DNA of 57,109 nucleotides, taken from IMG/VR virus record IMGVR_UViG_3300030419_005317, positions 25,318 to 82,426 of that record, one strand, 5' to 3'. Of this stretch, positions 4,303 through 56,992 are shown one piece after another; position 1 is the first letter of the stretch; the number at the start of each line of letters is the position of its first letter. The notes under the pieces were generated by a model. That model searched no databases. It was not told the DNA's origin and was given only the letters and a program-made list of their open reading frames with translations. Source of the stretch: a virus. The position numbers and the translations under genes are program-made.

Positions 4303-4577
4303 CAATCTCTCAAAATACCGTAGATATAATTCTCCAGCACAATAGAAAATGTCCGATTATCGTAGTTTAAATCATTGATCATTGAATTTTCAACAATGAT
4401 TTTATCCCCAGCTACAAGATTCAGCGTGCAATCATTTGCTATAGTATTTACGTTGCATATGACGTACTGGCTCTGTGCTGGGGCGTAGTCTTCCGGAAGC
4501 AGTATCTGTCCGGTGTCTTTGGGTTTCTCTTCCTTGACAACCTCTACCCAGACGTGCCTGTTGACGGGCTCAAACAT
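4302..4577 (-). CDS. GroES-like co-chaperonin (gp31-type)
   Basis: A 91-residue protein with the general layout of the GroES/Cpn10 barrel: an early RHVWVEVV strand, a polar loop ending in TGQILLPEDYAPAQSQYVI where GroES has its mobile loop and GxVVAVG strand, GDKIIVENSMI in the place of GDxVLF, and a C-terminal YIYGIL like the final DILAI strand. In T4 the equivalent protein gp31 replaces GroES so that host GroEL can fold the capsid protein. The match here is by pattern, not by identity, so the call is probable rather than certain. The ATG lies within the last codons of the zinc protein gene (8-base overlap). Confidence 0.75.
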   Translation of the reverse strand: MFEPVNRHVWVEVVKEEKPKDTGQILLPEDYAPAQSQYVICNVNTIANDCTLNLVAGDKIIVENSMINDLNYDNRTFSIVLENYIYGILRD

Positions 4578-41727: not shown

Positions 41728-42150
41728 CTACTTCATTGACTGCCAAATTTTATTAGCTCCGCCAATAATAGAGCTAATGTCGACACCGGCATCTCTAGCG
41801 TTGCCTAAATCGACACTTCCTTGGGGTGTTTGTGCGGCTATTGGCTCGGTCCCTTCGAACAGGTCCACACCATTATATGCATCCCCACCAATAGCATCTA
41901 ATAAGCCTTTTTTGTACTCGTTAATCTTTTTCTTATTTTCATTAATTTTGTTAAAATCTAATTCCCTTGATTGGGCAGGTTGCTTTGCATGAGCAGAGAT
42001 GGGGGCATGCTCAACTATTGGCATACCCGCAGTTACTCCTTTGGTAACCTCTTGTACAATATTAGAAAGCAACCCCTCTTCCAAGAGGCTTTCCTTAACG
42101 CACTCTTTGACAATTGGCTTAATTAATTCTTTTAATTGTTTTTTGTTCAT
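41728..42150 (-). CDS. Hypothetical virion-region protein
   Basis: A 140-residue protein of unknown function. The N-terminus MNKKQLKELIKPIVKECVKE is a basic amphipathic helix related in pattern to the MKIT-type leader of other genes here (K-x-Q-L-K-x-I-I), followed by LLEEGLLSNIV with an L-x-E site. The rest is polar, with an acidic stretch and a Gly-rich end (DISSIIGGANKIWQSMK). It overlaps the upstream gene by four bases (ATGA) and lies just before bS21. It may be a minor capsid or core protein; the leader similarity is suggestive but weaker than in the MKIT set. Confidence 0.55.
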   Translation of the reverse strand: MNKKQLKELIKPIVKECVKESLLEEGLLSNIVQEVTKGVTAGMPIVEHAPISAHAKQPAQSRELDFNKINENKKKINEYKKGLLDAIGGDAYNGVDLFEGTEPIAAQTPQGSVDLGNARDAGVDISSIIGGANKIWQSMK

Positions 42151-43136: not shown

Positions 43137-43746
43137 CGGAAAAATCCCTTAGAACATCATTCAAGGCCCTATTAATGCGATCAGATTTTGTAAATATATT
43201 CGGCTTTTCTAGATCTTTAGCTTCCTTCATCATATACGCACCGGGAGTCGATGGCTCTGAGACAAAATCAAAGCAAATTAGTTGAAAATCATCTTCTACG
43301 ATGGTTCCATTTTGGTTTTCACTGACGGATCCCATTCCGCGAGAAGAAATTCCTAGGCTAACTCCGGATTTTACCAATTCTTGCAAAACTTGCCCAGATG
43401 GAGTGTTCAACACTTTAACTTTTCCCATGACATCGTTACCGTTCCACCAAATATCTGTCACAAGATGTGAAGCGTTTTTTAAATTTATTACCGAGTCGTC
43501 GGGATGATCTAATTCACCCAATGCGCGGCGCTCTTTTACTAGTTTTATGTAATTGTGCACTTCTTTTTCAAGCACAGCATGCGGATAGATGCGCCCATTC
43601 CCATTAACAGTGTCTGATTTTTGCATTATTCCAGACAAAATCATACCGCCGCCTGCAACAAACCTTTTTTCTTCCTCAGTTAAAAGATCTTGGCAAACGC
43701 CGCCTTCGCATAATTCATAATATTCACGTAAAAGTTTTTTTGACAT
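43129..43746 (-). CDS. Prohead core protease (gp21-like)
   Basis: Serine protease of 205 residues that cleaves capsid and core proteins during head maturation. The fold markers are clear: GGGMILSGIMQKSDTVNGNGRIYP, ERRALGELDHPDD with catalytic His (H81), and VKSGVSLGISSRGMGS with the catalytic Ser (S134 or S135), the same order as T4 gp21. The ATG at 43746 has TTTGGAG before it; the open frame runs 11 codons further upstream without a good site. Family knowledge: T4 gp21 cuts after (L/I)-x-E, sites that also appear in the capsid protein and in the MKIT-type leaders here. Confidence 0.93.
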   Translation of the reverse strand: MSKKLLREYYELCEGGVCQDLLTEEEKRFVAGGGMILSGIMQKSDTVNGNGRIYPHAVLEKEVHNYIKLVKERRALGELDHPDDSVINLKNASHLVTDIWWNGNDVMGKVKVLNTPSGQVLQELVKSGVSLGISSRGMGSVSENQNGTIVEDDFQLICFDFVSEPSTPGAYMMKEAKDLEKPNIFTKSDRINRALNDVLRDFSDG

Positions 43747-43832: not shown

Positions 43833-44174
43833 TTATTTGTCCAGATGTTGTTCATTGTTACTAACTCCTATTTGAATTCCATTGTCACAGAATAGAACAT
43901 TTAAAATATATGATGTTCCAGAACTAACACAGCCTAATATAAAGCAATTAATCAATGTAGGTTCAAACGTAAATAGTTGCGTGGTACGGTTAATTCCGCA
44001 TAAAAACACACCAACCCAAAATCCCATGCACATTGGGCAGTGGAATAATTCACCAAATCCGTTTAACCAATTCTTTGATGGTCTAATTTTATTAAATATT
44101 GTTCCGTAAACTAGAATCTGTGTAAGCCCATAAGCGGCAAGAATAAACCACAATAGATCAGCTATATATACCAT
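43833..44174 (-). CDS. Small membrane protein (DUF1360-like)
   Basis: A 113-residue protein with two or three membrane segments: LLWFILAAYGLTQILVYG at the N-terminus, FWVGVFLCGIN after HCPMCMGFW, and INCFILGCVSSGTSYILNVLF. The CPMCMGFWVG motif following an amphipathic loop is typical of a DUF1360-type family found in phages and bacteria, function unknown. The ATG at 44174 is 11 bases after the stop of the MKIT-leader gene. It is an odd membrane protein among head genes; roles in capsid assembly at the membrane or in host interference are possible. Confidence 0.65.
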   Translation of the reverse strand: MVYIADLLWFILAAYGLTQILVYGTIFNKIRPSKNWLNGFGELFHCPMCMGFWVGVFLCGINRTTQLFTFEPTLINCFILGCVSSGTSYILNVLFCDNGIQIGVSNNEQHLDK

Positions 44175-44185
44175 TCATGCTCCGC

Positions 44186-44572
44186 TTATTTGGGTGAGAT
44201 CGAGGGCCCACCACCAGCGCCTGTGCCGGGATCACCACCACCGCCGGCGGCTGGACCGGGCTCTGGGGCCTCTGCAGTCTCTGGTGTGGATATTGTGACG
44301 CCCATCTTCTCCAGCTGCTGCAGCAGAAGCTCCACCAGTCGACGGGTACGGCCGATTGCAATATTTCCTTGTGCAGCGGCATCGCGGAGGGCTTGCTCTA
44401 CTGTATCGAGCATGCTTCTTTCTGTTTTCGAGACTCCTGATGTGCTGCCCCGGGCGCGCGCCATGGTCTGCTTGCGAAGGTCACTTGCAGAAACGTCGGC
44501 TCCGTCTAGTTCCTTAAGGGAATCAAGCTCTTCTTTGATCAAGGCCCTTAATTTATCTTTAGTGATTTTCAT
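44186..44572 (-). CDS. Small protein with MKIT-type leader
   Basis: A 128-residue protein starting MKITKDKLRALIKEELDSL, a member of the leader set. Behind the leader, a helical region (TERSMLDTVEQALRDAAAQG, RRLVELLLQQLEKMG) is followed by a Pro/Gly/Ala-rich, unstructured C-terminus. The I-K-E at the leader end would be a prohead protease site. It follows another leader protein by two bases and precedes the membrane protein. It may be a minor core or internal protein; no enzymatic motif is visible. Confidence 0.7.
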   Translation of the reverse strand: MKITKDKLRALIKEELDSLKELDGADVSASDLRKQTMARARGSTSGVSKTERSMLDTVEQALRDAAAQGNIAIGRTRRLVELLLQQLEKMGVTISTPETAEAPEPGPAAGGGGDPGTGAGGGPSISPK

Positions 44573-44574
44573 TT

Positions 44575-45570
44575 TTATTTTTCCTTGTTTGATGTAATTT
44601 TAATTACGATTTTATTTTTTTGTTCTTGCAGTTCAGGCGCTGAGCGTGGTAGCTCTGCCTGCAATGCGCCTTTCTTAAATTGATTCATAAGTTTTTGTTC
44701 GATTGCTTCGGCCTGCCCCAAGAGATCTTTAAAGCGCGCCTCGATATCATTTTGAATTGATAAAAACTTTTTCTTATCTGATGGCGAGATCTGGGCGTAG
44801 AATTCCTCAGACGACACGGATACCTGACTAGCCTCTTCTTTCATTTGGGCTCTAAAAGCCTTGGTACTCCGAGAATCGCCGGATCTGTCGTCTGGATCGT
44901 AGGTGCCTGCCATGCGCGCAAGTTTCCTAAATGCGCTCTGGCGCATGTCGTCTATTTCTTCATCAATAAATCGTCTGACACTTTCTGCTTTGGCGACAGT
45001 GCCCTGAGTTGCCTTGCCGGCATCCATGATTGCGGTTAGCGCTGCCAATACATCTACAGTCTCTGCCAAATATACCATTGCATTTGCGATACTGCCTTCG
45101 ACTCCACTAGAATATACATCGCTTAAATTAATATCATCCGCCCTAGTCTGACCAAAAACCTTAGCCTGAGAGCGGCCTGGCTCCAGATTAAGCGGGCCGG
45201 CTTTGCGCTCCATGCCGAGCTTTTCCCCGTAACGATTCCATTCGGCATCGGGGGCAGATAGGAGCTTCCATATGTGAATGCGACCGCCGCGTTCATCCTG
45301 AATATATGAATCAAAACTCCAGTTGCCCTTATTGCTAGCTGTTGCTTTCGCTGCGGCCATTCCATCTTGCGCAATTACAGGTTTGATTTTGCTCCAAAAT
45401 TGGGGAGTATCCCCGAGACTGGATGCGAGACCTTTAAACTGTCGATATTTTGCATTAAAAAATTTACCGACACTCTTAATGATGTCTCCCAATCCTTCAT
45501 CAAGTGATTGAATTTCGTTTTGTATCTCTTCGTTGATGATTTGTTTTAGCTGTGCTTGGCTGTATTTCAT
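44575..45570 (-). CDS. Protein with MKIT-type leader, candidate internal protein
   Basis: A 331-residue protein from the ATG at 45570 (AAAGGA upstream). It begins MKYSQAQLKQIINEEIQNEI, with I-N-E as a possible cleavage site, then a helical region (LGDIIKSVGKFFNAKYRQFKGLASSLG), a central part with GRIHIWKLLSAPDAEWNRYGEKLG, and a long C-terminal helical segment (FLSIQNDIEARFKDLLGQAEAIEQKLMNQF) ending in a basic tail. Its start is one base after the tubulin-like gene, which suggests joint expression and possibly joint function. No known family is recognised. Confidence 0.65.
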   Translation of the reverse strand: MKYSQAQLKQIINEEIQNEIQSLDEGLGDIIKSVGKFFNAKYRQFKGLASSLGDTPQFWSKIKPVIAQDGMAAAKATASNKGNWSFDSYIQDERGGRIHIWKLLSAPDAEWNRYGEKLGMERKAGPLNLEPGRSQAKVFGQTRADDINLSDVYSSGVEGSIANAMVYLAETVDVLAALTAIMDAGKATQGTVAKAESVRRFIDEEIDDMRQSAFRKLARMAGTYDPDDRSGDSRSTKAFRAQMKEEASQVSVSSEEFYAQISPSDKKKFLSIQNDIEARFKDLLGQAEAIEQKLMNQFKKGALQAELPRSAPELQEQKNKIVIKITSNKEK

Positions 45571-45571
45571 T

Positions 45572-46621
45572 TTATTTTCCTTTAGGCAACCCATTCATAC
45601 ATAGTATGGCAACTAAGCCGGGGGCATTATCTTTTACGTAAACACCAGAAAATAGAGTATCGGTCCTTCCGCCAACATAAGAAATAGCTGCATCTAAATG
45701 CTTGCTGATTTCTGGATCAGAGGCCATCGCTGGACTGACAACCAAGAGTAGTGAGCCGGTCTTTGGTCGACCAGTTGGCTGCGGGCACGGTGAACGCTTT
45801 AGACAATTCTGCAGAATCGTTGAACCTAAGTTTGGATTTGCAGGATCTGTTATCATTGTTGAGCCAATAAACATTCTACCGTCTGTGTTTAAGCATCTTT
45901 CTAAATCCTTTGAATCAAAAGATTGAATTGGTGATTTTTCCGCGGATAATTTTAATACTTGTGTGAACAGCTTCGCAAATGCCGTGTTGGCAAATGGGAA
46001 CATTCCAAGCATTCCTACTTTACCGCGTAACAATTTAACTTGTTTTTCGTTATCAATTAAAATATGTGAGTGTTTTGAAACGTCATTTACAAGAGACAAG
46101 GCATTTTTGCTGATTGTCGGGTTTAAGCACTCTTGTGCAGTTGGCCATGAGGCAACATAAATTATATTCCCTCCCGCCTGCACGGATTTTAGATAACGAG
46201 TAAATACTTCATGTAAAGCTTCAGCGGCACTTCCAGTGCCACCACCTCCGCCGGCTAGCACAATAAGCCAGTCGACTTTGCCAAGCTTTGTTCTTAGCGC
46301 ATCTTCGACAACTGCACTATTTGCATCGAGTACAGATTTGCCAAGATTAACATCTTTACCGATTCCATCGGCGTCTGGGATAAGCACCACATGTGCGTCA
46401 TCCACATCGTCTGGGATGTCTTTCGGTGTTGTGTTTATTAGTAATGTCTTGTTGTATCCTATATCCAAGAAGGCCTTTGCCATCTTGCCACCACCGCCAC
46501 CAACACCAATGATAGCGCAATTGAGAGAAGACACTATTTCATTTTCCGGAAGTTGATCTTCGTGATTAACTTCCTCTTCTTCTCCGTAATGGTCTACAAA
46601 ATCAAAATCATCCATGCTCAT
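45572..46621 (-). CDS. Tubulin/FtsZ-like GTPase
   Basis: A 349-residue protein with all main FtsZ/tubulin GTPase loops. After an acidic 30-residue start it shows CAIIGVGGGGGKMAKAFLDIG (T1, residues 38-45), LLINTTPKDI (T2 region), WLIVLAGGGGGTGSAAEAL (T4 signature, residues 123-131), HSHILIDN (where FtsZ has IPN), and SFDSKDLERCLNTDGRMFIGST (T7 synergy loop with D236 and D239, as in FtsZ NxDFAD). It should bind and possibly hydrolyse GTP. Unlike known phage tubulins of jumbo phages (PhuZ), it lies in the head module between the portal group and the prohead protease. A filament, a scaffold for head assembly or a virion protein are the options. Confidence 0.82.
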   Translation of the reverse strand: MSMDDFDFVDHYGEEEEVNHEDQLPENEIVSSLNCAIIGVGGGGGKMAKAFLDIGYNKTLLINTTPKDIPDDVDDAHVVLIPDADGIGKDVNLGKSVLDANSAVVEDALRTKLGKVDWLIVLAGGGGGTGSAAEALHEVFTRYLKSVQAGGNIIYVASWPTAQECLNPTISKNALSLVNDVSKHSHILIDNEKQVKLLRGKVGMLGMFPFANTAFAKLFTQVLKLSAEKSPIQSFDSKDLERCLNTDGRMFIGSTMITDPANPNLGSTILQNCLKRSPCPQPTGRPKTGSLLLVVSPAMASDPEISKHLDAAISYVGGRTDTLFSGVYVKDNAPGLVAILCMNGLPKGK

Positions 46622-46659
46622 AATTAGTTTCTCCTATGCTCCTAGAAATTCGCGGTGCA

Positions 46660-47139
46660 TTACTCTGTTAGACCAGAGCCGGTTATTGCACCCATCATGT
46701 TGGCTGGAATATTTGTTAATTCCGCGAATACTTTATATGCGCCAGATGTTCCGGCATCGCCGGCACAGCTGATATAAATTTCAGTACATTTGACATTCAT
46801 CGTAATTGAGCCAGTCGAGGGGGATGCTGCCAGTCCGCCGGTTATTTCCAGAAAATGAAGCTGATCTACAACATTCGCTGAGCCCGGGTAGTCTCTTGCA
46901 TCCCGGCCGTTGTAGCCAGCGGCGCCGGCAATTGCCACCGAGCTAGTTGTGTTAAAGTGCACACGCAGGGTTTGCGTACCGTGATTGTAAACAGTTACGG
47001 CTTTTGTAACATTTGGGAATGATACTCTATCTTCTTGGCCCCGTCCCAGTGCGGAGCCGGTTATAAACGGCCTTCCTGCTATTTGATATGAGCCCACATT
47101 ATGTGGACCGGGGGGTAATTTCCACGAATTTGATGGCAT
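46660..47139 (-). CDS. Small beta-rich virion-like protein
   Basis: A 159-residue protein rich in Gly, Ser, Thr and Ala with short strands (KAVTVYNHGTQTLRVHFNTTSSVAIAG, SITMNVKCTEIYISCAGDAG), suggesting a beta-sandwich. The opening SNSWKLPPGPHNVGSYQIAGRPFITGSA looks like an extended arm. There is no signal peptide or leader of the MKIT type. It sits between two unknown genes and the tubulin-like gene, with TAGGAG before the ATG. A minor capsid or vertex protein is the most natural guess; no family is recognised. Confidence 0.55.
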   Translation of the reverse strand: MPSNSWKLPPGPHNVGSYQIAGRPFITGSALGRGQEDRVSFPNVTKAVTVYNHGTQTLRVHFNTTSSVAIAGAAGYNGRDARDYPGSANVVDQLHFLEITGGLAASPSTGSITMNVKCTEIYISCAGDAGTSGAYKVFAELTNIPANMMGAITGSGLTE

Positions 47140-47181
47140 TAATTAATCTCCTAATTCTTCTTTAAATAGTTTAAACTATCA

Positions 47182-47730
47182 TTAAATCGTATATAAATAA
47201 CTTAATGAATACGGATCACGAATGTAACCCTTTCGCATCGAGCCCTGTTCTGCCGAGTGTGGAACATCTCCTAAATCTGTGCTGTCGGTGTCACTAGGAT
47301 CTGTGAGGGCGTCTTCCTCGTCTCCAATCATTGCATCGACAAATTCAAAATATGGTCTCTCTTCATCAATAAACTTAGATATATTTAATAACGTTACTTT
47401 GGCGGCGCTTAAGTTTTCATCCGCCGATTCCTGTATTACAGCCTCCATGGAGCCGTATACATTTCCTGCTTGCACGGTCTCTGGCTTGATTATTCCCTTC
47501 TTCCGAAGGAACGTAAACAATCTATTCTGCGCTCCATAGACTGTATCTGATATGTTTTCTTTTGCAAAGGTTACAACCTTGTTGGTGCCGGGGCTTAAAA
47601 TAATATCAATATCGCCATGATCAAAAATCATGAGGTCTCCATTGAGAGATTTGCGTATATTAAGCTCTAGTCTGATTAAATTAGCTCTAGGCTTCTTGGT
47701 TTGTTTTCCAATTACAACTTCGACCGACAT
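47182..47730 (-). CDS. Hypothetical virion-region protein
   Basis: A 182-residue protein with a beta-rich first half (VEVVIGKQTKKPRANLIRLELNIRKSLNGDLMIFDHGDIDIILSPGTN) and a helical second half, followed by an acidic Asp/Ser/Thr-rich linker and GYIRDPYSLSYLYTI at the end. The ATG shares one base with the stop of the upstream gene (TAATG). It could act in head assembly since it lies two genes after the portal, but I see no diagnostic motif. Confidence 0.55.
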   Translation of the reverse strand: MSVEVVIGKQTKKPRANLIRLELNIRKSLNGDLMIFDHGDIDIILSPGTNKVVTFAKENISDTVYGAQNRLFTFLRKKGIIKPETVQAGNVYGSMEAVIQESADENLSAAKVTLLNISKFIDEERPYFEFVDAMIGDEEDALTDPSDTDSTDLGDVPHSAEQGSMRKGYIRDPYSLSYLYTI

Positions 47731-48551
47731 TACTGATGTATCTCCTGAACTAAATTCTGAATCTTCAGCAGCTGTCTTACCATGCTCTCGTCGATCTTCT
47801 TATTGGCATATGAGTCGACTTCGGACATAATCTTATTGATCTTTGCTACCATTTCATCGTCTCTAGACACGTCGTCCAATTTAAGCGATTCTGCTAATTT
47901 GTCCTTAAGCCTTCCGATCTCTTCGTTTAAGAACATTTTTAATTGAATGCCATTATCAGCAAACGAGGTGATGTAGTGGTTTAGCAGCTGCTTTTGCTCG
48001 CTTATTAGAGTGTCAGAATACTTTTCGTTGAATTTTACAATAAAGGAGTTTAATACTATATTGTCAATCGGCTTTAATTCTTTATCCTGCCTACTGTGGC
48101 CTTGCGACATATAGTCAACAATCTCATTCTCTAATATGACCGCACTCTTGGGACTTAATTTATCACTAAATATTTGTGAAATAGATGCTAGTGTCTTGTA
48201 ATTTGGAATGAAATTATTATAAACACGCGGAGATAATTCCTTGTTAATATCGTTTATTAACTCTGTTTGATTTTGAAATATATTCTCTCCGCCAATTAAT
48301 CTACGTTGAAGTTTAGCCTCTTTTATTACCTTCTCGCAAAAAGCACGATCTAAATCTGTACTTTCATATAGGCTGCGATATAATTCTAGTTCCCTTTTCA
48401 ATATTGAATCTTTCGAAAAATGTCTCTTTAAGATCTTAATAGTTTTTTGCTTTTGCTGATTGTTGCCATCAACAACGCTCTTGGTCACCTCTTTGACTAA
48501 GGATTCATAAAGAAATGCTGTGTTTCTTTTTTTATTATGTTTGGTCTTCAT
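47730..48551 (-). CDS. Hypothetical head-module protein
   Basis: A 273-residue, mostly helical, highly charged protein. It starts MKTKHNKKRNTAFLYESLVKEVTK and continues as helices (KQKTIKILKRHFSKDSILKRELELYRSLYE, NQTELINDINKELSPRVYNNF, EEIGRLKDKLAESLKLDD). Its start lies inside the end of the portal gene (17-base overlap). The place after the portal and its charge resemble prohead core proteins (gp67/gp68 position in T4), though it is larger. No catalytic motif. Confidence 0.55.
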   Translation of the reverse strand: MKTKHNKKRNTAFLYESLVKEVTKSVVDGNNQQKQKTIKILKRHFSKDSILKRELELYRSLYESTDLDRAFCEKVIKEAKLQRRLIGGENIFQNQTELINDINKELSPRVYNNFIPNYKTLASISQIFSDKLSPKSAVILENEIVDYMSQGHSRQDKELKPIDNIVLNSFIVKFNEKYSDTLISEQKQLLNHYITSFADNGIQLKMFLNEEIGRLKDKLAESLKLDDVSRDDEMVAKINKIMSEVDSYANKKIDESMVRQLLKIQNLVQEIHQ

Positions 48552-50517
48552 CTTTTTCTAACTCCAACGGAATGTTTTTTTGCTCCAATAGCTGGATCAA
48601 ATCCCTAACTTCATGATTGATTTCAAACAGACGCTGCTCTTCATCATCACTATAACTAGGTTCTAAATCTTCATAAATGCCGCCGCGGGCAAGAGTTCTC
48701 AATTCTGTTGCTCCTAAATTGTTGGTCCTGTAGGTATTAGTCTCCGGACTGGCTGATCTCATGGCGCTTCTTTGGCGGGCGGCCATGTCTGATTTGGGGT
48801 CGGCTTCGGGTTTATATTTGCTTGTCCCATGCGAGCCTTTGTATACTCTGGTCTTTCTTTTTTCCTTCGGGGCTAAGCGCCTTGATGGTCGATTAGCCGG
48901 CGGAGGCTCAGCTTCATCCGGACTAGTCAACAACATTGAGTCATCTTCAGCAGCAGGTTCCTCGGCGCCAAGTTCTTCTTCGCCACCCAAGGCATCATCG
49001 CCTAAATCTTCGCCGGCGCCAGTAAGTCCGCCAAGTTCACCGCCTAGTGCGCCCTCGCCACCCATTGCTCCAGCTTCCGCAACCGCCTGCAGAGCGGCAT
49101 CTTGTTTGCGATCAAAGAACAACTCTCTTTGGTTGCGTAAAAATTCTTCTTCAGACATGTTGAACAAGTATTGTGCAACCCATCTTCTGGAAAAGTATCC
49201 TTCAGTTGCTGCCGATGCCACGTCAAACTTAGTTCTCCAGTGTTCTAATTCTTGCAGTTCTGCTATCTTGGAGGGGTTGTTCAGAGACAGATTAAAGCTC
49301 AACAGATCGTCACCCCTAAAGCCAAGTGTGTAAAGATGCACAATTCCAATCTTTTCTAATTCTGAGATTATAACTCTCTGCAGCCTTTGAATGGTTCTGG
49401 CAAACCTAATATCCTTTTGTGCTAGTGTGGTTTTGTCTTCGTCGGCGCCTTCGCCTCGGGATAGATACGACTGAGGAATCTTGAGCGCGGAGAACAACTT
49501 ATCTCTTAGGTATTTAATATCGTCGATTTCAGTGTTGTTGGAGCCGCCGGGCAGAGTTGTAATATCGGAACTTGAGCCGGCGCGAACTGGAATAAAGTAA
49601 TCTTCTTCGATACTTAGCGGGTTATATCTAAGATCTACCCGGCCAGTATCGGGATCAACAACTTGATGTCTTTTCATTTGCGATACAATCTTTTGCATAT
49701 ACTGCTCCACATCCTGTGGCGGAATGCTGCCCACATCAATCTTAAACACTCTTCTTTCTGGGGAGCGGATAACTCGATATGCCATCATAGCATCTTCCAT
49801 CAACACTAATTGTCTCCAGATGCGGCGCGCAGGCTCCAATATGGAAGTGCCGTATGGTGCGTACTTATCATTTCCTAAAATACGAAAATGCGCAACCTGC
49901 CAGTTCTCAAATGTCATGCCGGCAGTGTTCCATTGAAACTGTACGTAGTTGGGGTTTGTGGCGTCAAGGCCCTCTAGTCTCTCAATCTCATGCGTTGGCA
50001 GAGATATGGCTGATTTGACCCCAAACTTTTCATCGATATCCAAATACAAAAAGAAATCTCCATATTTACACATCGTACGACACCAGCCAAAAAGATTATA
50101 ATTAATATTCATTATGCTATCGTACAACACATGCAATACTGCCTTTATCTCTTCGTTGGGACAGTTAATCTTAAGCATCGGCTGAAGATCTGAGTGGGTT
50201 GTCATCTCGTCTGCGTATATGTCCATTGTTGATGCAATCTCTGGCATGTATTCCATTTGATCGAAGTCGACGTATCTTTCGCTTCTTCTCTGGTTTGCAA
50301 TTGCATTAACGGCAACGGTGTCTAGTGGATTATATGTGCTTCTCTTAAACTGTTGCCCGCTAGCTGATCTAAAGCGCGCCGAATACTTATCTAGATGCTG
50401 TCTCCTGATGCGGCGACCGGTCTGGGAGCGGTAGTTGATTATCGGACCAGAAAATATTCTTGTTAATCTTTTAAATAATTCTGATTGGGGGTTTCTTGGG
50501 TTTTCAGTTTTTGCCAT
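48535..50517 (-). CDS. Portal protein (gp20-like)
   Basis: Forms the dodecameric ring through which DNA enters the head; 660 residues against about 524 for T4 gp20. The core is well preserved: YVDFDQMEYMPEIASTMDIYADEMTTHS, MNINYNLFGWCRTMCKYGDFFLYL, YAPYGTSILEPARRIWRQLVLMEDAMMAYRVIRSPERRVFKIDVGSIPP, and KIPQSYLSRGEGADEDKTTLAQKDIRFARTIQRLQR. After residue 480 there is a long acidic Gly/Ala-rich tail, then a basic segment and a helical C-terminus, an extra region absent in T4 gp20. It follows the terminase gene by eight bases. Confidence 0.96.
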   Translation of the reverse strand: MAKTENPRNPQSELFKRLTRIFSGPIINYRSQTGRRIRRQHLDKYSARFRSASGQQFKRSTYNPLDTVAVNAIANQRRSERYVDFDQMEYMPEIASTMDIYADEMTTHSDLQPMLKINCPNEEIKAVLHVLYDSIMNINYNLFGWCRTMCKYGDFFLYLDIDEKFGVKSAISLPTHEIERLEGLDATNPNYVQFQWNTAGMTFENWQVAHFRILGNDKYAPYGTSILEPARRIWRQLVLMEDAMMAYRVIRSPERRVFKIDVGSIPPQDVEQYMQKIVSQMKRHQVVDPDTGRVDLRYNPLSIEEDYFIPVRAGSSSDITTLPGGSNNTEIDDIKYLRDKLFSALKIPQSYLSRGEGADEDKTTLAQKDIRFARTIQRLQRVIISELEKIGIVHLYTLGFRGDDLLSFNLSLNNPSKIAELQELEHWRTKFDVASAATEGYFSRRWVAQYLFNMSEEEFLRNQRELFFDRKQDAALQAVAEAGAMGGEGALGGELGGLTGAGEDLGDDALGGEEELGAEEPAAEDDSMLLTSPDEAEPPPANRPSRRLAPKEKRKTRVYKGSHGTSKYKPEADPKSDMAARQRSAMRSASPETNTYRTNNLGATELRTLARGGIYEDLEPSYSDDEEQRLFEINHEVRDLIQLLEQKNIPLELEKDEDQT

Positions 50518-50525
50518 AATTTATC

Positions 50526-52109
50526 TCACTTAATTAGCCACATTAATTGTTCATATTGTTTTTTAGACTCGTTTATTTTATCAGCATTTTTATTGTTTTT
50601 ATAGTTTTTCATACCCTTAATTGTTGTATCAAAGCTTGTTCTGGTGTAAACAATTGAATCTAGAAAGGCCTTTTTGTAGTTTAAGTCTCTTTGGTTTACT
50701 TGTAGGGCGGTATCGCGAACCCAACACGCAATTGCCAAGGACATGATTAGATCATCATTATATCCCCGCATTGCTTGAGGTTTTCCATTGTGCCAAATAA
50801 AAGTTTTCATTTCATTAAGTAAACGATGAGAGTGTATGGTAATTAGTTGATTTCTGATGAATTCTTCTAATTTTGCAACAATAAGAGGTCTTGTCTTAGA
50901 AGTGGTGGAGAATCCGGGCACTGCGTTTGAGCGAGCCTCCGCCTGAAGCTGATCGACATACTCATGAGTGGCCTTAATAGAGTAGTAAATATTTGGATAT
51001 TCAAATTCGATTAATTTTTCTAATACCGAATATCCAATGCTGTTATTTTCCACTATCATGAGACAATTACCAAACTCTCGGCCAACTTGATTCAACATGT
51101 TGGCATACAAATCTGGTGCCGGCTTCCCTTGATATTCGCCTACGATACTGAGTGTTTCTAATTTGATAATATGGAACACCGAGTAATCGGCTCCGTCGCC
51201 GCGGGCGACATCGGCAACCAATATATAATTACAAGAAGCGTCGTACTCTTCCCAGATCCAAAAATTTCTATCAAATCCAGTTTTGTATTTTGGCTCTACA
51301 ATGCCCATTGAAAGCTTTTCCAAATCCTCTGGATCAATAACCGTTTCTCCTGATGTATTGAAGTTGCACTCTAACTCTTGCGCAATTTGCCTCTTGGACA
51401 TGTTTGCGGTTTCTTTGCTAAACCAATCTTTGTCGCGATCTGGGTGTACGTCCCACGGCAATATTGTAGGGTAAAAATTGTTTGTTTTTGCTTCCGCTTC
51501 GGTATAAATCTTGTGAAACCAATTACCTACGCCATTTGGGGTAGAGAGCGCGATGCAGCGGCCGCCAGTCGAGAGTGTAGGATACAGGCCGGTCCACAGC
51601 TCATCAAGATTTTCAATGTGTGCAGCCTCATCAAGCACCAACAAAGAAAGAGATTCAGAACGACCAGCATCTCCCGAAGTCGATGAGGCCTTTATAAATG
51701 ATCCATTTGATAACTCAAATGACGTCCTGTTATCAACCGATATGTCTGCTATCTTGATGAAATCCGGCAAGTTTTTCATTATGTTTTTAACTTTTTTAAC
51801 TAGGTTGGCTGCGGTGCCGAATTTTGTTGCCATGACTAATACGTTCTTATCGCGATGAAACAGCATCAACCAAACAATATAACCCGCCGATATGGTAGAT
51901 ATACCTAACTGGCGGGCTTTTAGGATTACATTAAACCTGTAATCATTGAAGTCTTGTACTAACTGATCTTGAAAGTCGTACAATCTAAAAGGAATTAAAC
52001 CGTGAAGTGGGTGAGAGATTCTTGCGTAATTGTTTAAAAAATACGTAGGATCCTTGCCGCATTTGACAATCTCCTTTACCATTTCCTTTTTTGTTAGTTG
52101 AAAACTCAT
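50526..52109 (-). CDS. Terminase large subunit (gp17-like)
   Basis: DNA packaging motor, 527 residues. The ATPase has FRLYDFQDQLVQ (adenine motif region), ARQLGIST (Walker A variant), LLVLDEAAHIE (Walker B with catalytic Glu) and ALSTPNGVGNWF (coupling motif C). The nuclease domain has LVADVARGDGADYSVFHI, LMIVENNSIGYSVLEKL and GYNDDLIMSLAIACW, with the acidic residues of the RNase H fold. It is slightly shorter than T4 gp17 (610). No ribosome site is clear before the ATG at 52109. A small terminase gene is not recognised in the window. Confidence 0.96.
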   Translation of the reverse strand: MSFQLTKKEMVKEIVKCGKDPTYFLNNYARISHPLHGLIPFRLYDFQDQLVQDFNDYRFNVILKARQLGISTISAGYIVWLMLFHRDKNVLVMATKFGTAANLVKKVKNIMKNLPDFIKIADISVDNRTSFELSNGSFIKASSTSGDAGRSESLSLLVLDEAAHIENLDELWTGLYPTLSTGGRCIALSTPNGVGNWFHKIYTEAEAKTNNFYPTILPWDVHPDRDKDWFSKETANMSKRQIAQELECNFNTSGETVIDPEDLEKLSMGIVEPKYKTGFDRNFWIWEEYDASCNYILVADVARGDGADYSVFHIIKLETLSIVGEYQGKPAPDLYANMLNQVGREFGNCLMIVENNSIGYSVLEKLIEFEYPNIYYSIKATHEYVDQLQAEARSNAVPGFSTTSKTRPLIVAKLEEFIRNQLITIHSHRLLNEMKTFIWHNGKPQAMRGYNDDLIMSLAIACWVRDTALQVNQRDLNYKKAFLDSIVYTRTSFDTTIKGMKNYKNNKNADKINESKKQYEQLMWLIK

Positions 52110-52132
52110 ACATTTTTATTAATACAGTTCAG

Positions 52133-53143
52133 TCAGGTGGGTGTATCTTCTTTTAAACTCTCGTCGGCGCGACCCATGGGATCTCCCGTATCCAAGCCAT
52201 CCAGCACATTAGCGACAATATCAAAAGCGTCCTGCAGGTGGGGGTACTCCCCAAGAACGTCCTCAAGTGCGTGATACGCTGTCGTTAGTTTTTCATAACT
52301 ATCAGGCTCTTCTTCTGCTGCAGTGCTATGTGGCGGCGGGTGGTCGCCGGCGAAGATGTCAAACATCTCATCACTGTGATAGTCGTCGTGCTCGGCCAGA
52401 ATTTCTGCAATTGCAGTGCGCAATTCTTCATACATGCCCACCTTAGACAAACGTTTCTGCCACTTGGTTGCCGCAGCAGGGGTCGCTTTGGATCTTCTAT
52501 ATTTGCTGGAGGAACGCCAGCTTGGTCCGCTTCCGCCGAGGGTACTTCTTATGATGTTATCTTTATTATCAAGCACTGCGTATCCAGATGGTACCTTGTG
52601 ACCAAGACCAGTAATGGCCAATAGTCCTTCGCGACCAAAAGAGTTCTTAATCATCTGCGCTTCCTTGGTGGCAGCAGCTGAGTCGGCTTGATCGTATAAC
52701 CCTTTTTCTAAATCACTAAATGCGCGGTAAAACAAGTCGTAAAATTCCAGCCACGCTTCAACTGAGCCGCGGCCTCCGCTTAATTGCTTGACTTCTTGCT
52801 CGGCCTCTTTGCCTCTTTTGGGCTCCATCGCCGCAAGACCTCTTTTAGATTGGTATGTGATTGGTCCAAATTTCTTTTCGCGAGTACCTTCGTATGTCTG
52901 AATATCATCTAATGCTCTCACCATATTTCTATTAAAATTACCGAGCCACCTATCAAGTCTTTCTCCCTTGAGTAGTTTGCTTTTTTGCATGCCGGTGTGT
53001 ATTAATCTGCGAATCATCACCATGTCGTGATAATCCTCTATGGCCGAATCGCCTTGGCCGGTTTTTGGATATGTATAGTCTTCTGCTTCTTGTTTTAATT
53101 GATCGCCAATGATGGCTTTCAATTCAGCTAAGGTAATTTTCAT
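52133..53143 (-). CDS. Protein with MKIT-type leader, unknown
   Basis: A 336-residue protein starting MKITLAELKAIIGDQLKQE, the least typical leader of the set (I-G-D in place of I-K-E). The body has helical parts (VMIRRLIHTGMQKSKLLKGERLDRWLGNFNRNMVRALDDIQTYEG, WLEFYDLFYRAFSDLEKGLYDQ), a segment GREGLLAITGLGHKVPSGYAVLDNKDNI, a basic region and an acidic C-terminal third (HDDYHSDEMFDIFAGDH). It lies directly before the terminase gene in the place of a small terminase, but lacks the usual helix-turn-helix and oligomer pattern, so I do not call it one. Confidence 0.65.
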   Translation of the reverse strand: MKITLAELKAIIGDQLKQEAEDYTYPKTGQGDSAIEDYHDMVMIRRLIHTGMQKSKLLKGERLDRWLGNFNRNMVRALDDIQTYEGTREKKFGPITYQSKRGLAAMEPKRGKEAEQEVKQLSGGRGSVEAWLEFYDLFYRAFSDLEKGLYDQADSAAATKEAQMIKNSFGREGLLAITGLGHKVPSGYAVLDNKDNIIRSTLGGSGPSWRSSSKYRRSKATPAAATKWQKRLSKVGMYEELRTAIAEILAEHDDYHSDEMFDIFAGDHPPPHSTAAEEEPDSYEKLTTAYHALEDVLGEYPHLQDAFDIVANVLDGLDTGDPMGRADESLKEDTPT

Positions 53144-53145
53144 TG

Positions 53146-53679
53146 TTATTTTTTCCTAGTGTCGTTGTCTGGGCGCTTACCTAAAAATCCACCTTGATCA
53201 AGAAAGCTCTTGTAGCCGGCTTCTAGTGAATTCTCGCTGTCTTCTCCGATCTTTGCAACCTCATCTAAGCCGCCGATCTTGTAATATTTATAAGCCTGAA
53301 CCCAAGAGCGGACTCTGGACATGCTTTGAACCAGTACATCTACTTCGCCTTCGGCTGTTAGAGTAACTGAATCGCCGGTAATCTTTTTATATTCTTTCTT
53401 CAAAAAGCTGGCGACATCATTTATTCTGCTTTCTATCTCCGACTCAAATCCGGTACCGTGTACCTCTTTCAATTGAATCTCAGAGTGATAATGAATGCAC
53501 AAAAGCGGTCCATGGAACCTAACTCCAAAACCATCCATTACTCGCTTATCAAGCAAGGGCTCTCCCTCTTCTCTCATTAAACCAACTTTAATTGGTTCGC
53601 CATTCTCGTCGAGGGCTCCGTCATATGCATTAGCTGCTGCTTGCGATATCCCCTGTACTACGTCTATTATAGAAGCCAT
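53146..53679 (-). CDS. Hypothetical protein
   Basis: A 177-residue protein. It begins ASIIDVVQGISQAAANAYDGALDENGEPIKVGLMREEGEP, then FGVRFHGPLLCIHYHSEIQLKEVHG, a helix with ESEIESRINDVASFLKKEYKKITGDSVTLTAEGEVDVLVQSMSRVRSWVQAYKYYKIGG, and a polar tail. This order, with the KVGL..E.G.P...RVMDGFGV.....L...YHSEI pattern, recurs in marine phage genomes as a conserved unknown near terminase genes. The ATG shares one base with the stop of the 36-residue gene upstream. A packaging or head role is possible by position. Confidence 0.6.
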   Translation of the reverse strand: MASIIDVVQGISQAAANAYDGALDENGEPIKVGLMREEGEPLLDKRVMDGFGVRFHGPLLCIHYHSEIQLKEVHGTGFESEIESRINDVASFLKKEYKKITGDSVTLTAEGEVDVLVQSMSRVRSWVQAYKYYKIGGLDEVAKIGEDSENSLEAGYKSFLDQGGFLGKRPDNDTRKK

Positions 53680-53789
53680 TATTTGCTTTCTCCCTTTTCT
53701 TCTTTAATTAGCTTGCGAATATCTTTATCCTGCAAGCGCACTAATTGTTCTCTAATTAGTTTACGAATCTGTCTTAATGTTACCTTCAT
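53679..53789 (-). CDS. 36-residue peptide made of the leader motif twice
   Basis: Very short gene encoding MKVTLRQIRKLIREQLVRL and then QDKDIRKLIKEEKGESK. It consists of the MKIT-type helix followed by a second, shorter copy (DIRKLIKEE) and nothing else. It starts within the last codons of the zinc protein gene and ends in TAATG with the next gene. GGAGG lies 11 bases before the ATG. It may be a free leader peptide, a remnant of a protein that lost its cargo, or a small core peptide. Coding is supported by the leader match and by the tight stop-start contact. Confidence 0.65.
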   Translation of the reverse strand: MKVTLRQIRKLIREQLVRLQDKDIRKLIKEEKGESK

Positions 53790-54165
53790 TTGGGCGCCAT
53801 CCTCCAAGCCATCTTTCTTCCCTGTGTTCTACCCACTTTATGTAGCAATCGTTGCAACAGTCATATTTGGCCATCGCAATATCGTCTCCTACTTTACGCG
53901 TATACTTATTACAAACAGGGCAAGAGCCAATAGGCTCTTTATTAAGTAGTTTTTTAGAAACTAAAACACCATTAACTAACACTTTCTCAGAAGCCTCTTG
54001 GGTGCGGCGTTCTTTTTGTGCTAATTCTTTTAATTGTTTTAAATATTCTTTTTCTTTTTCTTCATCCCAATTCGCTCTTGGGTTTTGAATTGCCTCTTTG
54101 CCATATTTCTTTGCAATTGCCCTCTCTATGGCGGCGATGCGGTTTAAATCTTTTTCATTTTTCAT
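53761..54165 (-). CDS. Zinc-ribbon protein
   Basis: A 134-residue protein starting at the ATG at 54165; upstream sequence in frame belongs to the preceding gene. A helical, basic first part (LNRIAAIERAIAKKYGKEAI, EKEYLKQLKELAQKERRTQE) leads to CPVCNKYTRKVGDDIAMAKYDCCNDCYIKWVEHREERWLGGW, in which C-x2-C and CC-x2-C would bind one zinc. The pattern with KYDCC..CYI.WVE.REERW..GWRP is a recurring phage unknown. The Glu/Lys-rich helix could contact nucleic acid or protein. The stop overlaps the next small gene by 29 bases. Confidence 0.7.
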   Translation of the reverse strand: MKNEKDLNRIAAIERAIAKKYGKEAIQNPRANWDEEKEKEYLKQLKELAQKERRTQEASEKVLVNGVLVSKKLLNKEPIGSCPVCNKYTRKVGDDIAMAKYDCCNDCYIKWVEHREERWLGGWRPNEGNIKTDS

Positions 54166-54577
54166 TGAAAGCCTTATAAGCCCCATAACTGGCTGCAGTA
54201 CCAACAATAATACCGCCGGCAAACCAATAAAATTTATTGCGCGGCGAAGTCTTTTTTAAGGATTTAACTAATGATTGTATTTCTTTATCTTTTTGTGCAA
54301 TAAACAAATCATACTCCTGTGTTAGTGCTTTATGTTCTATCTTCAGGGTCTCAAGCTCAAGCTTGTGACGCTCTTGTTCTTTTTTTAATTCATAATCAAT
54401 CTTTATGTCACAAGCATATGCTGCAATTTCGTAGCTCGATAAAATTGTAGAAATTGCCTTCCCATCAAACAAAACCCCCTCAAAGGGAGCGGGCTTTTTA
54501 TATTCCAATATTGTAAATTTTGCTGGCTCTGTTGCATTGGCGCTCAGAGTTGATATCAATAACAGTTTAAGGAACAT
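54155..54577 (-). CDS. Spanin-like / lysis-associated membrane protein
   Basis: A 140-residue protein with a short hydrophobic N-terminus (MFLKLLLISTLSANATEP, resembling a signal peptide but without a lipobox cysteine), a periplasmic-looking region, a coiled coil (ELKKEQERHKLELETLKIEHKALTQEYDLFIAQKDKEIQSLVKSL) and a C-terminal membrane segment (FYWFAGGIIVGTAASYGAYKAF). Directly after a second coiled-coil membrane protein and a holin-like gene, this order suggests a spanin pair. The topology (C-terminal anchor) is not that of the classic Rz/Rz1 pair, so the assignment is tentative. Confidence 0.5.
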   Translation of the reverse strand: MFLKLLLISTLSANATEPAKFTILEYKKPAPFEGVLFDGKAISTILSSYEIAAYACDIKIDYELKKEQERHKLELETLKIEHKALTQEYDLFIAQKDKEIQSLVKSLKKTSPRNKFYWFAGGIIVGTAASYGAYKAFNEK

Positions 54578-54950
54578 ATTGAATCCCGAAAGTCGTTTCT
54601 ATGTCTTTAATCAACTGTTCTCTGTCGTGATTAAACTTATTGGCATATTCACCTTTTTTATCCTCTCTTAGTTGATTAATCATCTTAAGAGCGTCTTCGT
54701 AATCCTCTTCAATCGCCGCCATGGACTCCATATAGCTTTCCATTAGCAGCCGCTTCTCTTCTATTTCTTGCTTGTGGATTTCTTTTAGGCCTTCAATTTG
54801 AGCCTCGTTGGATTCAATCATGGTCGTATAGGCAGACTGCATAAGGTGATAGTCGTATCGAGTTTTCAACACAATAACAGCGGCCAATAACACTATTGCT
54901 ATTACTTTCCAATTCTTAAGAGCAAATTGCAAAACTTGTTTCTTAATCAT
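54567..54950 (-). CDS. Inner-membrane spanin-like protein (Rz-like)
   Basis: A 127-residue protein starting at the ATG at 54950. One N-terminal membrane segment (WKVIAIVLLAAVIVLKT) after a short basic segment (MIKKQVLQFALKN) is followed by a long coiled coil (MIESNEAQIEGLKEIHKQEIEEKRLLMESYMESMAAIEEDYEDALKMINQLREDKK). This is the layout of an i-spanin that links inner and outer membranes in the last step of lysis of Gram-negative cells. It overlaps the holin-like gene by eight bases and the next gene by 11. Confidence 0.6.
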   Translation of the reverse strand: MIKKQVLQFALKNWKVIAIVLLAAVIVLKTRYDYHLMQSAYTTMIESNEAQIEGLKEIHKQEIEEKRLLMESYMESMAAIEEDYEDALKMINQLREDKKGEYANKFNHDREQLIKDIETTFGIQYVP

Positions 54951-55143
54951 TGTGCCCCCGCAATCTAGCGATACCATCAATAATTGTTTGGCCTCCGATG
55001 TAGATTGCTGAAATAATCACCCAGTCTTCACTGGTGACATGCCCTGTGAATGTAAGGGCTGTTGCTGTTGACCACACTAATAGCTTGCGAGATGTTAACT
55101 TAGCAAGCCATGTGTCGACAAATGCTTTTGTTTGTGCCATCAT
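54943..55143 (-). CDS. Holin-like small membrane protein
   Basis: A 66-residue protein with two probable membrane segments: LLVWSTATALTFTGHV and WVIISAIYIGGQTIIDGIARL, linked by a short polar loop (TSED) and ending in a basic, hydrophilic tail (RLRGHND). Size and layout fit a class II holin, and it is followed by spanin-like genes. No endolysin is visible next to it. The two consecutive ATG codons (55143, 55140) overlap the stop of the upstream leader gene (ATGA); dual starts are known to time lysis in lambda, but here this is only noted. Confidence 0.6.
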   Translation of the reverse strand: MMAQTKAFVDTWLAKLTSRKLLVWSTATALTFTGHVTSEDWVIISAIYIGGQTIIDGIARLRGHND

Positions 55144-55433
55144 TTTTTACCTCTTTTCTTCTTTGATATCTCCACTGCTGCAAGTTGTGCTTGGGCGTCT
55201 TTCTTTGGCTTCGGCTTCTTGGATAGCTCACGGCCACTCTTTGACGTTGCCTTATATCCGCCTTTGACTTTCTTGATCTTTTCTTCAAGAGCCTCTTCCC
55301 ACTCTTCGTGCTCTTGATCCTCATGCGCTTCCTTGCAAGACTGGCCGGCATGCTTTTTGCCTTTTTCTTTGGCTATCACAACTTCAATCTCTTCTTTGAT
55401 AATCTGCTTAAGTTGTCTGTGGTTAATCTTCAT
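55140..55433 (-). CDS. Lys/Glu-rich protein with MKIT-type leader
   Basis: A 97-residue protein beginning MKINHRQLKQIIKEEIEVV, followed by a charged region without hydrophobic core (KEKGKKHAGQSCKEAHEDQEHEEWEEALEEKIKKVKGG) and a strongly basic C-terminus (KSGRELSKKPKPKKDAQ, KKKRGKK). Such composition suits a DNA- or RNA-binding internal protein packaged with the genome. I-K-E at the leader end is a potential protease site. The ATG overlaps the upstream stop by four bases. Confidence 0.7.
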   Translation of the reverse strand: MKINHRQLKQIIKEEIEVVIAKEKGKKHAGQSCKEAHEDQEHEEWEEALEEKIKKVKGGYKATSKSGRELSKKPKPKKDAQAQLAAVEISKKKRGKK

Positions 55434-55918
55434 TTTCTACTATACTTTCCTGAGCAGTCCCATTTCTGGCGTGATAGACACAGGGGCGTGCCTCTGTCTT
55501 TGCCGGAACAGTCTTTACCGTGAGACTTCATGTCGCCGTACGATCTGGCGCAATATGCATCACCCTTAGAAGTACCGGGCTGCACTCTGTCGCCACCGCC
55601 CTTTGCCTTTCCTTTTTGACCATAGGAAACACACTTGCCGTCTACTCTCTTGGCAGAGGCTTTGCCTTTGGTTGGCTTACACGCTTTCTTTTTTTCATCT
55701 AAAACGGCTTCAATCTCTTCGTCGATTATATCATAAAGGTCTTGTTCTTCTTTAGTAATTTTTTTCCATGCCTTTTTGGTTGGTCGATCTTCCGCACAAT
55801 CGCCTGTTTTTGGCTTTCCTTTGCATCTTTTTTGTTTTGCGCGCATGTTATCAAAGAAGTTGCTTTCTTCGAGTTCTTCGCGGATAATCTGCTTAAGTTG
55901 TTGTTTTGTAATCTTCAT
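55430..55918 (-). CDS. Cys/Lys-rich protein with MKIT-type leader
   Basis: A 162-residue protein starting MKITKQQLKQIIREELEESN. The body is Lys-rich and contains CKGKPKTGDC, an acidic helix (DLYDIIDEEIEAVLDEKKKAC), a second basic part and a Cys-rich end: GDAYCARSYGDMKSHGKDCSGKD, then CLSRQKWDCSGKY. The final YCxRS...C...TPxCLSRxKWxCxG pattern recurs in phage proteins of unknown role and could bind zinc or form disulfides. The high positive charge suggests DNA contact. It overlaps both neighbours by four bases. Confidence 0.7.
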   Translation of the reverse strand: MKITKQQLKQIIREELEESNFFDNMRAKQKRCKGKPKTGDCAEDRPTKKAWKKITKEEQDLYDIIDEEIEAVLDEKKKACKPTKGKASAKRVDGKCVSYGQKGKAKGGGDRVQPGTSKGDAYCARSYGDMKSHGKDCSGKDRGTPLCLSRQKWDCSGKYSRK

Positions 55919-56295
55919 GTTCTCGGATCTCTAATGTTTAAAACTTGAACGAGCATTCTAGTGTCGTATTCTGATCGGTCTCCGCCATGATCCAAATTAT
56001 ATTTTGGCACCTTACCGAGATTAAGAACCAAATATCCAGCATCACTATCTACTATTTGAAGTATATCGCCTTGGTTGATCGCGGCGCCTTCGTCGTCGGT
56101 AAGGTTTTCATTAATTACTTCAGATTGAGATTCAGGCAGTCCGGACTTAAACTCGTCTGAGTAAGTGCATTTCTGTTGATCTGCATGCCATGTGCCACCT
56201 TTCATTTGACAAGACATTTCGGTATCGTACTCTTGAAGAATATTTTCTACCTCTTCCTTGATAATTTGTTTAAGTTGTTGTTTTGTAATCTTCAT
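55915..56295 (-). CDS. Protein with MKIT-type leader, unknown
   Basis: A 126-residue protein starting MKITKQQLKQIIKEEVENI. The rest has CQMKGGTWHADQQKCTY, an acidic stretch with TDDEGAAINQGDILQIVDSDAGYLVLNLGKVPKYN, and a C-terminal strand MLVQVLNIRDP, which looks like a small SH3-like beta barrel. The leader and cargo join near residue 20 (I-K-E). It overlaps the upstream gene by four bases and is co-translated with the next leader gene, which has the same first 12 residues. Confidence 0.7.
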   Translation of the reverse strand: MKITKQQLKQIIKEEVENILQEYDTEMSCQMKGGTWHADQQKCTYSDEFKSGLPESQSEVINENLTDDEGAAINQGDILQIVDSDAGYLVLNLGKVPKYNLDHGGDRSEYDTRMLVQVLNIRDPRT

Positions 56296-56627
56296 GTTGC
56301 TGCTTCTTCCATATGACCTTTGATTCGTGCGCCTGAAGCTCTTTCGCTATTCATTATAGCAATTTTAAGATCACGGCGTTGTTTCATAAGCTCATCAACC
56401 TCTGGTGTTGATTCAAAATCGGCATCAGGATCTGTTACGTCAATCCCCAAGCCGCCTAAAGCTACGGCCACATCACCGTCAAGTCTGTATAAATCTCTTG
56501 ACGACATTTGCGACAAATCAACACCGCTGAATTTTGCGCTTATGTTTCTAGATTCGTTGATAGCATCAGTCTTCTCGTCCATAAAATAACGAGGATCAAA
56601 TCTTCTTGTGTTTTTACGTCTAGCCAT
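56292..56627 (-). CDS. Small hypothetical protein
   Basis: A 111-residue protein without the MKIT-type leader. It begins MARRKNTRRFDPRYFMDEKTDA, a basic arm with RRFDPRYF, followed by acidic and helical parts (DLYRLDGDVAVALGGLGIDVTDPDADF, VDELMKQRRDLKIAIMNSERASGARIKGHMEEAAT). Its C-terminus resembles that of the partial gene at the right edge (SGA...R..KG..AT), and each directly precedes a leader gene with a four-base overlap. It could be a partner made in step with the leader proteins; no family recognised. Confidence 0.6.
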   Translation of the reverse strand: MARRKNTRRFDPRYFMDEKTDAINESRNISAKFSGVDLSQMSSRDLYRLDGDVAVALGGLGIDVTDPDADFESTPEVDELMKQRRDLKIAIMNSERASGARIKGHMEEAAT

Positions 56628-56659
56628 TATAATCTCCTATGTTGCTAATCCATTCATGC

Positions 56660-56992
56660 TTAGTTTAAATCTTCTCCAAGTGCGCTTGGATCCCAGCCTA
56701 AGTTAGTTGCTGGTTTGTTTTTCTTTCGATTATCTGCTTCTTCCCATTGTCGTGCAAGTTCTTGGAACCCCTGATCTTGTTCTATTTTTTTAACAAGTTC
56801 AGCTGCGATTCTTCTCTTTTCTTCATCAGACTTTGTATCTTCAATTACTTCTTCGGGGGTTGAGTCATCACCACTCAAACCAGCGGCGACCAGTGCACCG
56901 CCTATCAGGAAGCCTGCACCGAAGCCTTCACTCATCATTTGTTCAAGTTCTTCTTTAATAATCTGCTTAAGTTGTGATTTTGTAATCTTCAT
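56660..56992 (-). CDS. Protein with MKIT-type leader and glycine-rich segment
   Basis: A 110-residue protein starting MKITKSQLKQIIKEELEQM at the ATG at 56992. After the leader a Gly/Ala-rich hydrophobic stretch (GFGAGFLIGGALVAAGL) could insert in a membrane; the rest is acidic and helical (EEKRRIAAELVKKIEQDQGFQELARQWEEADNRKK). The open frame reaches 17 codons further upstream, but that part overlaps the preceding gene, and the leader match fixes the start. The hydrophobic stretch is unlike the other leader proteins and might help pore formation during injection (inference). Confidence 0.7.
   Translation of the reverse strand: MKITKSQLKQIIKEELEQMMSEGFGAGFLIGGALVAAGLSGDDSTPEEVIEDTKSDEEKRRIAAELVKKIEQDQGFQELARQWEEADNRKKNKPATNLGWDPSALGEDLN

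Follow-up and report, generated by a model that had tools for sequence, protein, structure and literature searches.

Close variants of the peptide MKITKxQLKQIIKEEL formed the N-terminus of eight minus-strand open reading frames in a 57,109-nucleotide stretch of viral DNA (positions 25,318–82,426 of the 82,426-bp IMG/VR record IMGVR_UViG_3300030419_005317), which is referred to below as the window. Sequence comparison makes it likely that this leader is a portable capsid-targeting propeptide, cleaved by an S77 prohead protease. This reading of targeting and cleavage draws together the leader itself, the protease, a cut-site signature, the avoidance of the L-x-E tripeptide by the cargo that follows the leader, the presence of the same L-x-E in head proteins, and the location of leader genes in the head cluster. 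Capsid targeting combined with gp21-like cleavage had been proposed previously from the letters of the window alone (the sequence-only reading); the proposal was strongly supported by sequence statistics and gene order, but the exact cut site was corrected.

A profile scan of the window placed the eight leader genes where the sequence-only reading had located them, all on the minus strand and all starting with the leader. They are as follows:

56660–56992, minus strand, leader protein of 110 aa (MKITKSQLKQIIKEEL...), the start of its cargo Gly-rich and hydrophobic, with M-S-E|G at residues 20–22
55915–56295, minus strand, leader protein of 126 aa, with L-Q-E at residues 20–22 and I-N-E|N at residues 61–63
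55430–55918, minus strand, leader protein of 162 aa with a Cys-rich, basic cargo and L-E-E|S at residues 16–18
55140–55433, minus strand, basic leader protein of 97 aa, with a C-terminal module also found in L068, L055, L167 and L110
53679–53789, minus strand, leader-only ORF of 36 aa, consisting of MKVTLRQIRKLIREQL and a second half-copy, KDIRKLIKEE
52133–53143, minus strand, leader protein of 336 aa and weakest of the set, with IGD instead of I-x-E
44575–45570, minus strand, leader protein of 331 aa (MKYSQAQLKQIINEEI), with L-D-E|G right behind the leader, in the part of the head cluster around 43833 and the protease
44186–44572, minus strand, leader protein of 128 aa, with L-K-E at residues 19–21

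The tripeptide I/L-x-E at leader residues 12–14 was present in seven of the eight, as had been claimed, the exception being 52133. On their own profile the 16-residue starts scored 41.9–53.8 bits, and 32–51 when each was left out in turn; the runner-up position in the whole window, across all frames, reached 10.4 bits, and the maxima of ten shuffled windows were 7.5–15.6 bits. A low-complexity or chance match was ruled out by these scores and by the absence of any leader from 131 random viral loci (1.13 Mb). No leader was found in the first 25 kb of the 82,426-bp record. Individual genes differed in character. The 53679 ORF, directly upstream of the conserved gene 53146, is only 36 aa long and so amounts to a leader with a half-copy and no real cargo, while 52133 scored 18.4 on the family profile. 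In the ORFs at 44575 and 56660 the leader Met is internal, as in-frame start codons precede it. Four homologues of 44186 were found in related phages, all of them leader-bearing and 30–36% identical; among the related loci no homologues were found for 44575, 52133 or 53679, and 55430 gave a match of leader length only. Comparison of 55915 with L116:1389-1634 showed that the leader, the I-N-E|N site and the downstream domain were shared, but the segment separating leader from site was not: L116 lacks this spacer.

The window carries a T4-type head cluster on its minus strand, comprising terminase, portal, S77 protease, scaffold-like protein and capsid protein, together with a core-like gene:

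50526–52109, minus strand, large terminase, best cultured match 45% (Flavobacterium phage immuto)
48535–50517, minus strand, T4-type portal protein (PF07230, E = 8e-80)
43129–43746, minus strand, S77 (T4 gp21-family) prohead protease (Pfam PF03420 Peptidase_S77, E = 5e-36; PHROG 207 head maturation protease, E = 2e-56)
41728–42150, minus strand, conserved core-like head-cluster protein with a leader-like N-terminus
33864–34973, minus strand, scaffold-like protein whose gene lies upstream of that for the capsid; almost all homologues have AL(K/R)E|A around residue 15
32008–33840, minus strand, T4-type major capsid protein, with LLRE|A at residues 57–61

The second cultured relative of the terminase was that of Microcystis phage Mel-JY01 (43%). 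Both profile matches confirmed the gp21-like protease that had been proposed at 43129, and the capsid protein does contain L58-R59-E60|A61, as had been noted. This L(R/K)E is placed like the T4 gp23 cut, and all 23 homologues have it. In the 41728 protein, LLEEG or a close variant (L-x-E) is found in 75 of 75 homologues, and the scaffold-like protein has 12 (L/I)xE sites in 370 residues. Several neighbouring genes were also recorded. A 329-aa gene after the protease (42147–43136, minus strand) has a leader-like start, SNEFKEVIKKEI, and one homologue among the related loci. An FtsZ/tubulin-family GTPase is encoded at 45572–46621 on the minus strand (Pfam Tubulin, E = 5e-8; PHROG PhuZ, E = 3e-4), in a phage whose head is T4-type; homologues of this gene occurred in 36 fetched loci, often adjoining a leader island. 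Further away, GroES-like and thioredoxin-like genes (4302–4577 and 3758–4069, minus strand), so judged by eye, lie beside a ribonucleotide reductase-like gene.

The leader is not confined to the window. At least 119 stretches in IMG/VR matched a degenerate pattern for the leader DNA, and they contained most of the leader ORFs counted (at least 416). Once the set had been enlarged with loci around related proteases and with giant-phage contigs, the family comprised at least 686 matches, at least 505 of them with distinct cargo. Among the matches listed, 36 leader genes were present in G025 (284 kb), 26 in G001 and 21 in G024, and at least 28 leaders, along with S77, were present on a contig of 305 kb that is assigned to a Methylococcaceae MAG. 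When 84,980 genomes of bacteria and archaea were scanned, only seven stretches matched, in four MAGs, two of which carry S77; the leader as a bacterial feature was accordingly disfavoured. The carriers are an uncultured and apparently marine group of T4-like phages. A search of immuto and Mel-JY01 with the DNA pattern found no leader, and both phages have an annotated prohead protease. The leader consensus produced no match to cultured phages by tblastn, probably being masked as low complexity; a less repetitive query produced two weak matches (E 3–5), and the weak match in Mel-JY01 was rejected as a leader because it sits at the C-terminal end of an annotated gene. Nor was the string MKITK found in the phage literature searched. 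Giant-phage leader proteins L365-L372 have a basic variant of the leader, MKITKRQLRRIIREE, often with A or S at position 15.

Across the 505 collected leaders, codons varied synonymously (I12 was encoded by ATT in 249, ATC in 201 and ATA in 36), while residues 8, 12 and 14 were 96–98% fixed; this combination of fixed residues and freely varying synonymous codons indicates selection on the peptide.

T4 gp21 cleaves after L/I-x-E (PMC9026906). Among 323 non-redundant leader proteins, [LI]xE occurred within residues 17–27 in 163, against 70.6 in shuffles (z = 14), and nothing similar was found in residues 28–66 of the same proteins. A column-stratified test, which takes out conservation due to shared columns, assigned the enrichment to a spacing of +2 (z = 11.9), other spacings being at or below 3.1; in the enlarged set of 505 proteins the value for +2 was z = 15.5. 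Outside the main column [LI]xE was still significant, both at residues 17–19 (z = 6.9) and at 21–26 (z = 5.6), and the motif therefore floats. At the downstream site P1 was Glu only (Asp, z = -1.7), and P3 was Leu (z = 11.4), then Ile, but not V, M, F, A or S; the values for Ala (z = -2.4) and Ser (z = -1.0) do not agree with the S/A-x-E motif of the phiKZ type. Lys, Asn and Asp were favoured at P2, and Ala and Asn at P1', where Pro never occurred (0 versus 7.6 expected). The restriction of P1 to Glu and of P3 to Leu or Ile, together with the lack of Pro at P1', points to a protease site rather than to a helix.

Presence of the second site depended on the residue that follows I-x-E. It was found in 10 of 56 leaders with A, S, T or G at position 15 (I-x-E|A), compared with 241 of 425 with E15 (p = 2.5e-8), and, given L or I, E followed at +2 in 18% of cases where residue 15 was small and in 40% where it was E15. 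The trade-off looks as if one good site were needed, but part of it may reflect helices that end sooner, for control patterns differed as well (odds ratio ~3). Either a second LxE in residues 17–29 or a small residue at 15 was present in 300 of 505 proteins; the ~40% with neither would need to be cut at I-x-E|E, or else would stay uncut. The cut site originally proposed, I-x-E at 12–14, was indeed conserved, but the clearer signature is carried by the second, floating (L/I)-x-E, which mostly ends at residues 19–26. The conserved I-x-E may be either a cut site or a docking motif, since conservation alone fits both.

A cargo shut in with a protease that recognizes L/I-x-E is expected to lose its internal sites. 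The frequency of LxE was expressed as observed over expected, relative to Lx[DQKN]. The ratio was 0.70 for all leader cargos (CI 0.64–0.76) and 0.67 (0.61–0.73) when giant phages were left out; it was 1.17 (1.00–1.37) for conserved non-leader families, 0.93 (0.80–1.06) for leaderless neighbours in the same islands, and 0.97 (0.77–1.16) for the replication, tail and packaging genes of the window. Depletion in the cargos was confined to spacing +2. The 60 cargo proteins of giant phages showed no avoidance (ratio 1.00, CI 0.80–1.21). The 12 sites of the scaffold, by comparison, are what would be expected of a protein that is to be chopped up.

S77 was present in 19 of 31 long leader-bearing records, in all six of those of 150 kb or more, and in every leader-bearing record in which the whole portal–protease region was assembled. 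Two records had a portal without S77, and in these the contig ends at the portal. The 12 records without S77 contained no intact portal region and, with the exception of G028, where it was broken, all lacked the capsid gene; they therefore look like fragments. Bare co-occurrence (19/31) is only mildly informative, because S77 was also found in three of nine random viral contigs of more than 58 kb. Heads of the HK97 type employ an S78 protease and a scaffold delta domain, with protease-coupled removal of N-termini during head maturation; the present case differs, in that no S78 protease was found in the 31 leader-bearing records and the heads are T4-type. A leader that is common in phages without a prohead protease had been named as evidence against the sequence-only reading, but this was not what was observed: S77 accompanied the leader wherever the region was fully assembled, S78 was lacking, and the random viral loci contained no leader.

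Gene order was compared across 153 loci, each of which had two or more head markers. All 347 leader genes matched the strand of the head cluster and none was opposite. Leader islands occurred upstream of 53761, around 53146, just before the terminase and around the protease; no leader genes were found in the 153 loci among terminase, portal and the following genes up to 43833, or in the gap between scaffold and capsid, and since these loci were picked by leader or protease, this result bears on where leader genes sit inside the head region. Many of the leader genes of giant phages were far from S77. Three small genes (43833–44174, 53146–53679 and 53761–54222, all minus strand), which are kept in ~100 related loci, frame the variable leader islands.

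Leader proteins aligned over the leader only, with a mean column identity of 5% (n = 130); the cargos were mostly 68–257 aa in length and, where related loci were compared, hypervariable between relatives. The mean charge of the 505 collected proteins was -0.055 per residue, and five of them were Cys-rich. In the window, cargo charge was +10 for 55140, +16 for 55430 (with 8 Cys), -13 for 52133, -10 for 55915 and -8 for 56660. The earlier description of the cargos as basic and Cys-rich was thus apt for 55430 in both respects and for 55140 in the first, but 52133, 55915 and 56660 are acidic and the family is slightly so. Pfam, PHROGs and PADLOC revealed almost nothing of cargo function: among 130 leader proteins Pfam identified seven families with one match apiece, among them an L,D-transpeptidase domain and the C-terminal domain of FliG, and PADLOC gave one marginal match. 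AlphaFold models of 55915 (two sequences) had a mean pLDDT of 49 and were not usable. By their sequences, the cargos look like mosaics of modules. One lysine-rich C-terminal module (GGYK...GRELSKKPKPKKAALAQLAAVEISKKKRGKK) is common to 55140–55433 (minus strand), L068, L055, L167 and L110, the middles of which differ. Another, WVQ(A/S)KITKAxDYLSSVKHYL, is found at the C-terminal end of leader proteins L061, L067, L093 and L184, and also in a protein of cyanophage S-SM2 (91801–93927) encoded between the terminase subunits.

Other roles for the leader were weighed against these results. It is unlikely that the leader proteins are components of the prohead core or of assembly, like T4 gp67 and gp68, which would be cut, then broken up or expelled, and never injected. 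Some leader genes do lie between 43833 and the protease, where T4 has its core genes, and the leader-like N-terminus of the core-like 41728 protein is also in keeping with such a role; however, the scaffold is full of LxE whereas the leader cargos avoid it, a difference that fits mature cargo having to survive, and the cargos are hypervariable, unlike core components. Distinctly more improbable is a docking helix for a replication compartment, a tubulin-like filament or a membrane, with LxE as a by-product of helix composition. The tubulin-family gene that adjoins the leader island in many relatives would suit this role, as would the helix that a low-confidence model predicts at residues 5–21; yet a helix has no need of Glu over Asp at exactly +2 from Leu or Ile in shifting registers, it explains neither the exclusion of Pro nor the avoidance of the same tripeptide in cargo interiors, and the amphipathicity of the leader was no higher than that of shuffles.

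The near-identical DNA of the leaders at 55918, 56295 and 56992, and the resemblance of cargos to shuffled modules, might also be explained by a recombination or translation-enhancing DNA cassette with no function at the protein level. This is scarcely credible when synonymous codons are free and the three leader residues are nearly fixed, although the leader may still owe its spread to recombination inside its own sequence.

As a targeting propeptide, the leader would act through its residues 1–16 (MKITKxQLKQIIKEEL), which would be read by the assembling prohead, such that unrelated late leader proteins become enclosed together with the scaffold. The S77 protease would cut after I-x-E at 12–14 where a small residue comes next, and otherwise usually at the second (L/I)-x-E ending near 19–26. 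The mature cargo would then remain in the head with the DNA and would presumably be injected, like the internal proteins of T4. We infer that the leader binds the prohead core, that it is actually cleaved, that the cargo is present in the virion and, by analogy with T4, that the cargo is injected and acts on the host.

The T4 internal proteins IPI–IPIII and Alt have an N-terminal capsid-targeting sequence (CTS) that is removed by gp21 (PMC9026906, PMC3012670, PMC5694885, PMC12373910). The two systems are alike in having a short N-terminal propeptide on otherwise unrelated proteins, an S77 protease, an L/I-x-E motif and hypervariable cargo. They differ in that the leader combines I-x-E with a second site near 19–26 in half of the proteins, and in that the cargo, known here from genes alone, is slightly acidic on average, unlike T4 internal proteins. 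They differ also in scale: T4 has three internal proteins and Alt, and its relatives are reported to have at least 10 internal proteins (PMC12373910), against up to 36 leader genes per record here among the matches listed. The leader may work like the T4 CTS by analogy; it is too short for homology, and common descent is not claimed. A further parallel is provided by the ejection (inner body) proteins of phiKZ and SPN3US, which are enclosed in the head and have N-terminal propeptides cut by a gp21-related protease (PMC5694885, PMC9026906). Many proteins with N-terminal propeptides and a gp21-related protease are features of both cases, but several of the phiKZ/SPN3US propeptides exceed 100 residues, compared with ~15–26 for the leader; phiKZ cuts at S/A-x-E, whereas the signature here is L/I-x-E, without enrichment of A or S at P3; and one leader sequence is common to all cargos, unlike phiKZ/SPN3US. 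Judged by sequence, the leader system appears to be a new version of T4-type capsid targeting, on a greatly expanded scale.

Recognizing injected phage proteins is difficult, as they may have only a packaging signal in common, and few of those of T4 have known targets. Where the packaging signal is readable from sequence, one profile yields hundreds of candidates for injection in environmental phages, and almost none of these proteins has a known domain. After injection, the internal proteins of T4 inhibit type IV restriction enzymes (PMC12373910), which makes the leader cargo set a natural place for new anti-defence proteins. That most cargos are injected effectors has about an even chance of being correct. 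Equally balanced is the broader proposition that one 16-residue tag serves as a general packaging address, by which dozens of proteins are loaded per phage and hundreds of cargos act as injected effectors or in anti-defence. A further possible use of the leader is as a tag with which foreign proteins could be packed into phage heads. Sequence statistics indicate that the tag is removed by the head protease while the capsid is still forming, so the particle probably carries many protein cargos; should the broader proposition be true, the injected protein set would be far larger than is known for T4 and its relatives, and would be readable from sequence alone.
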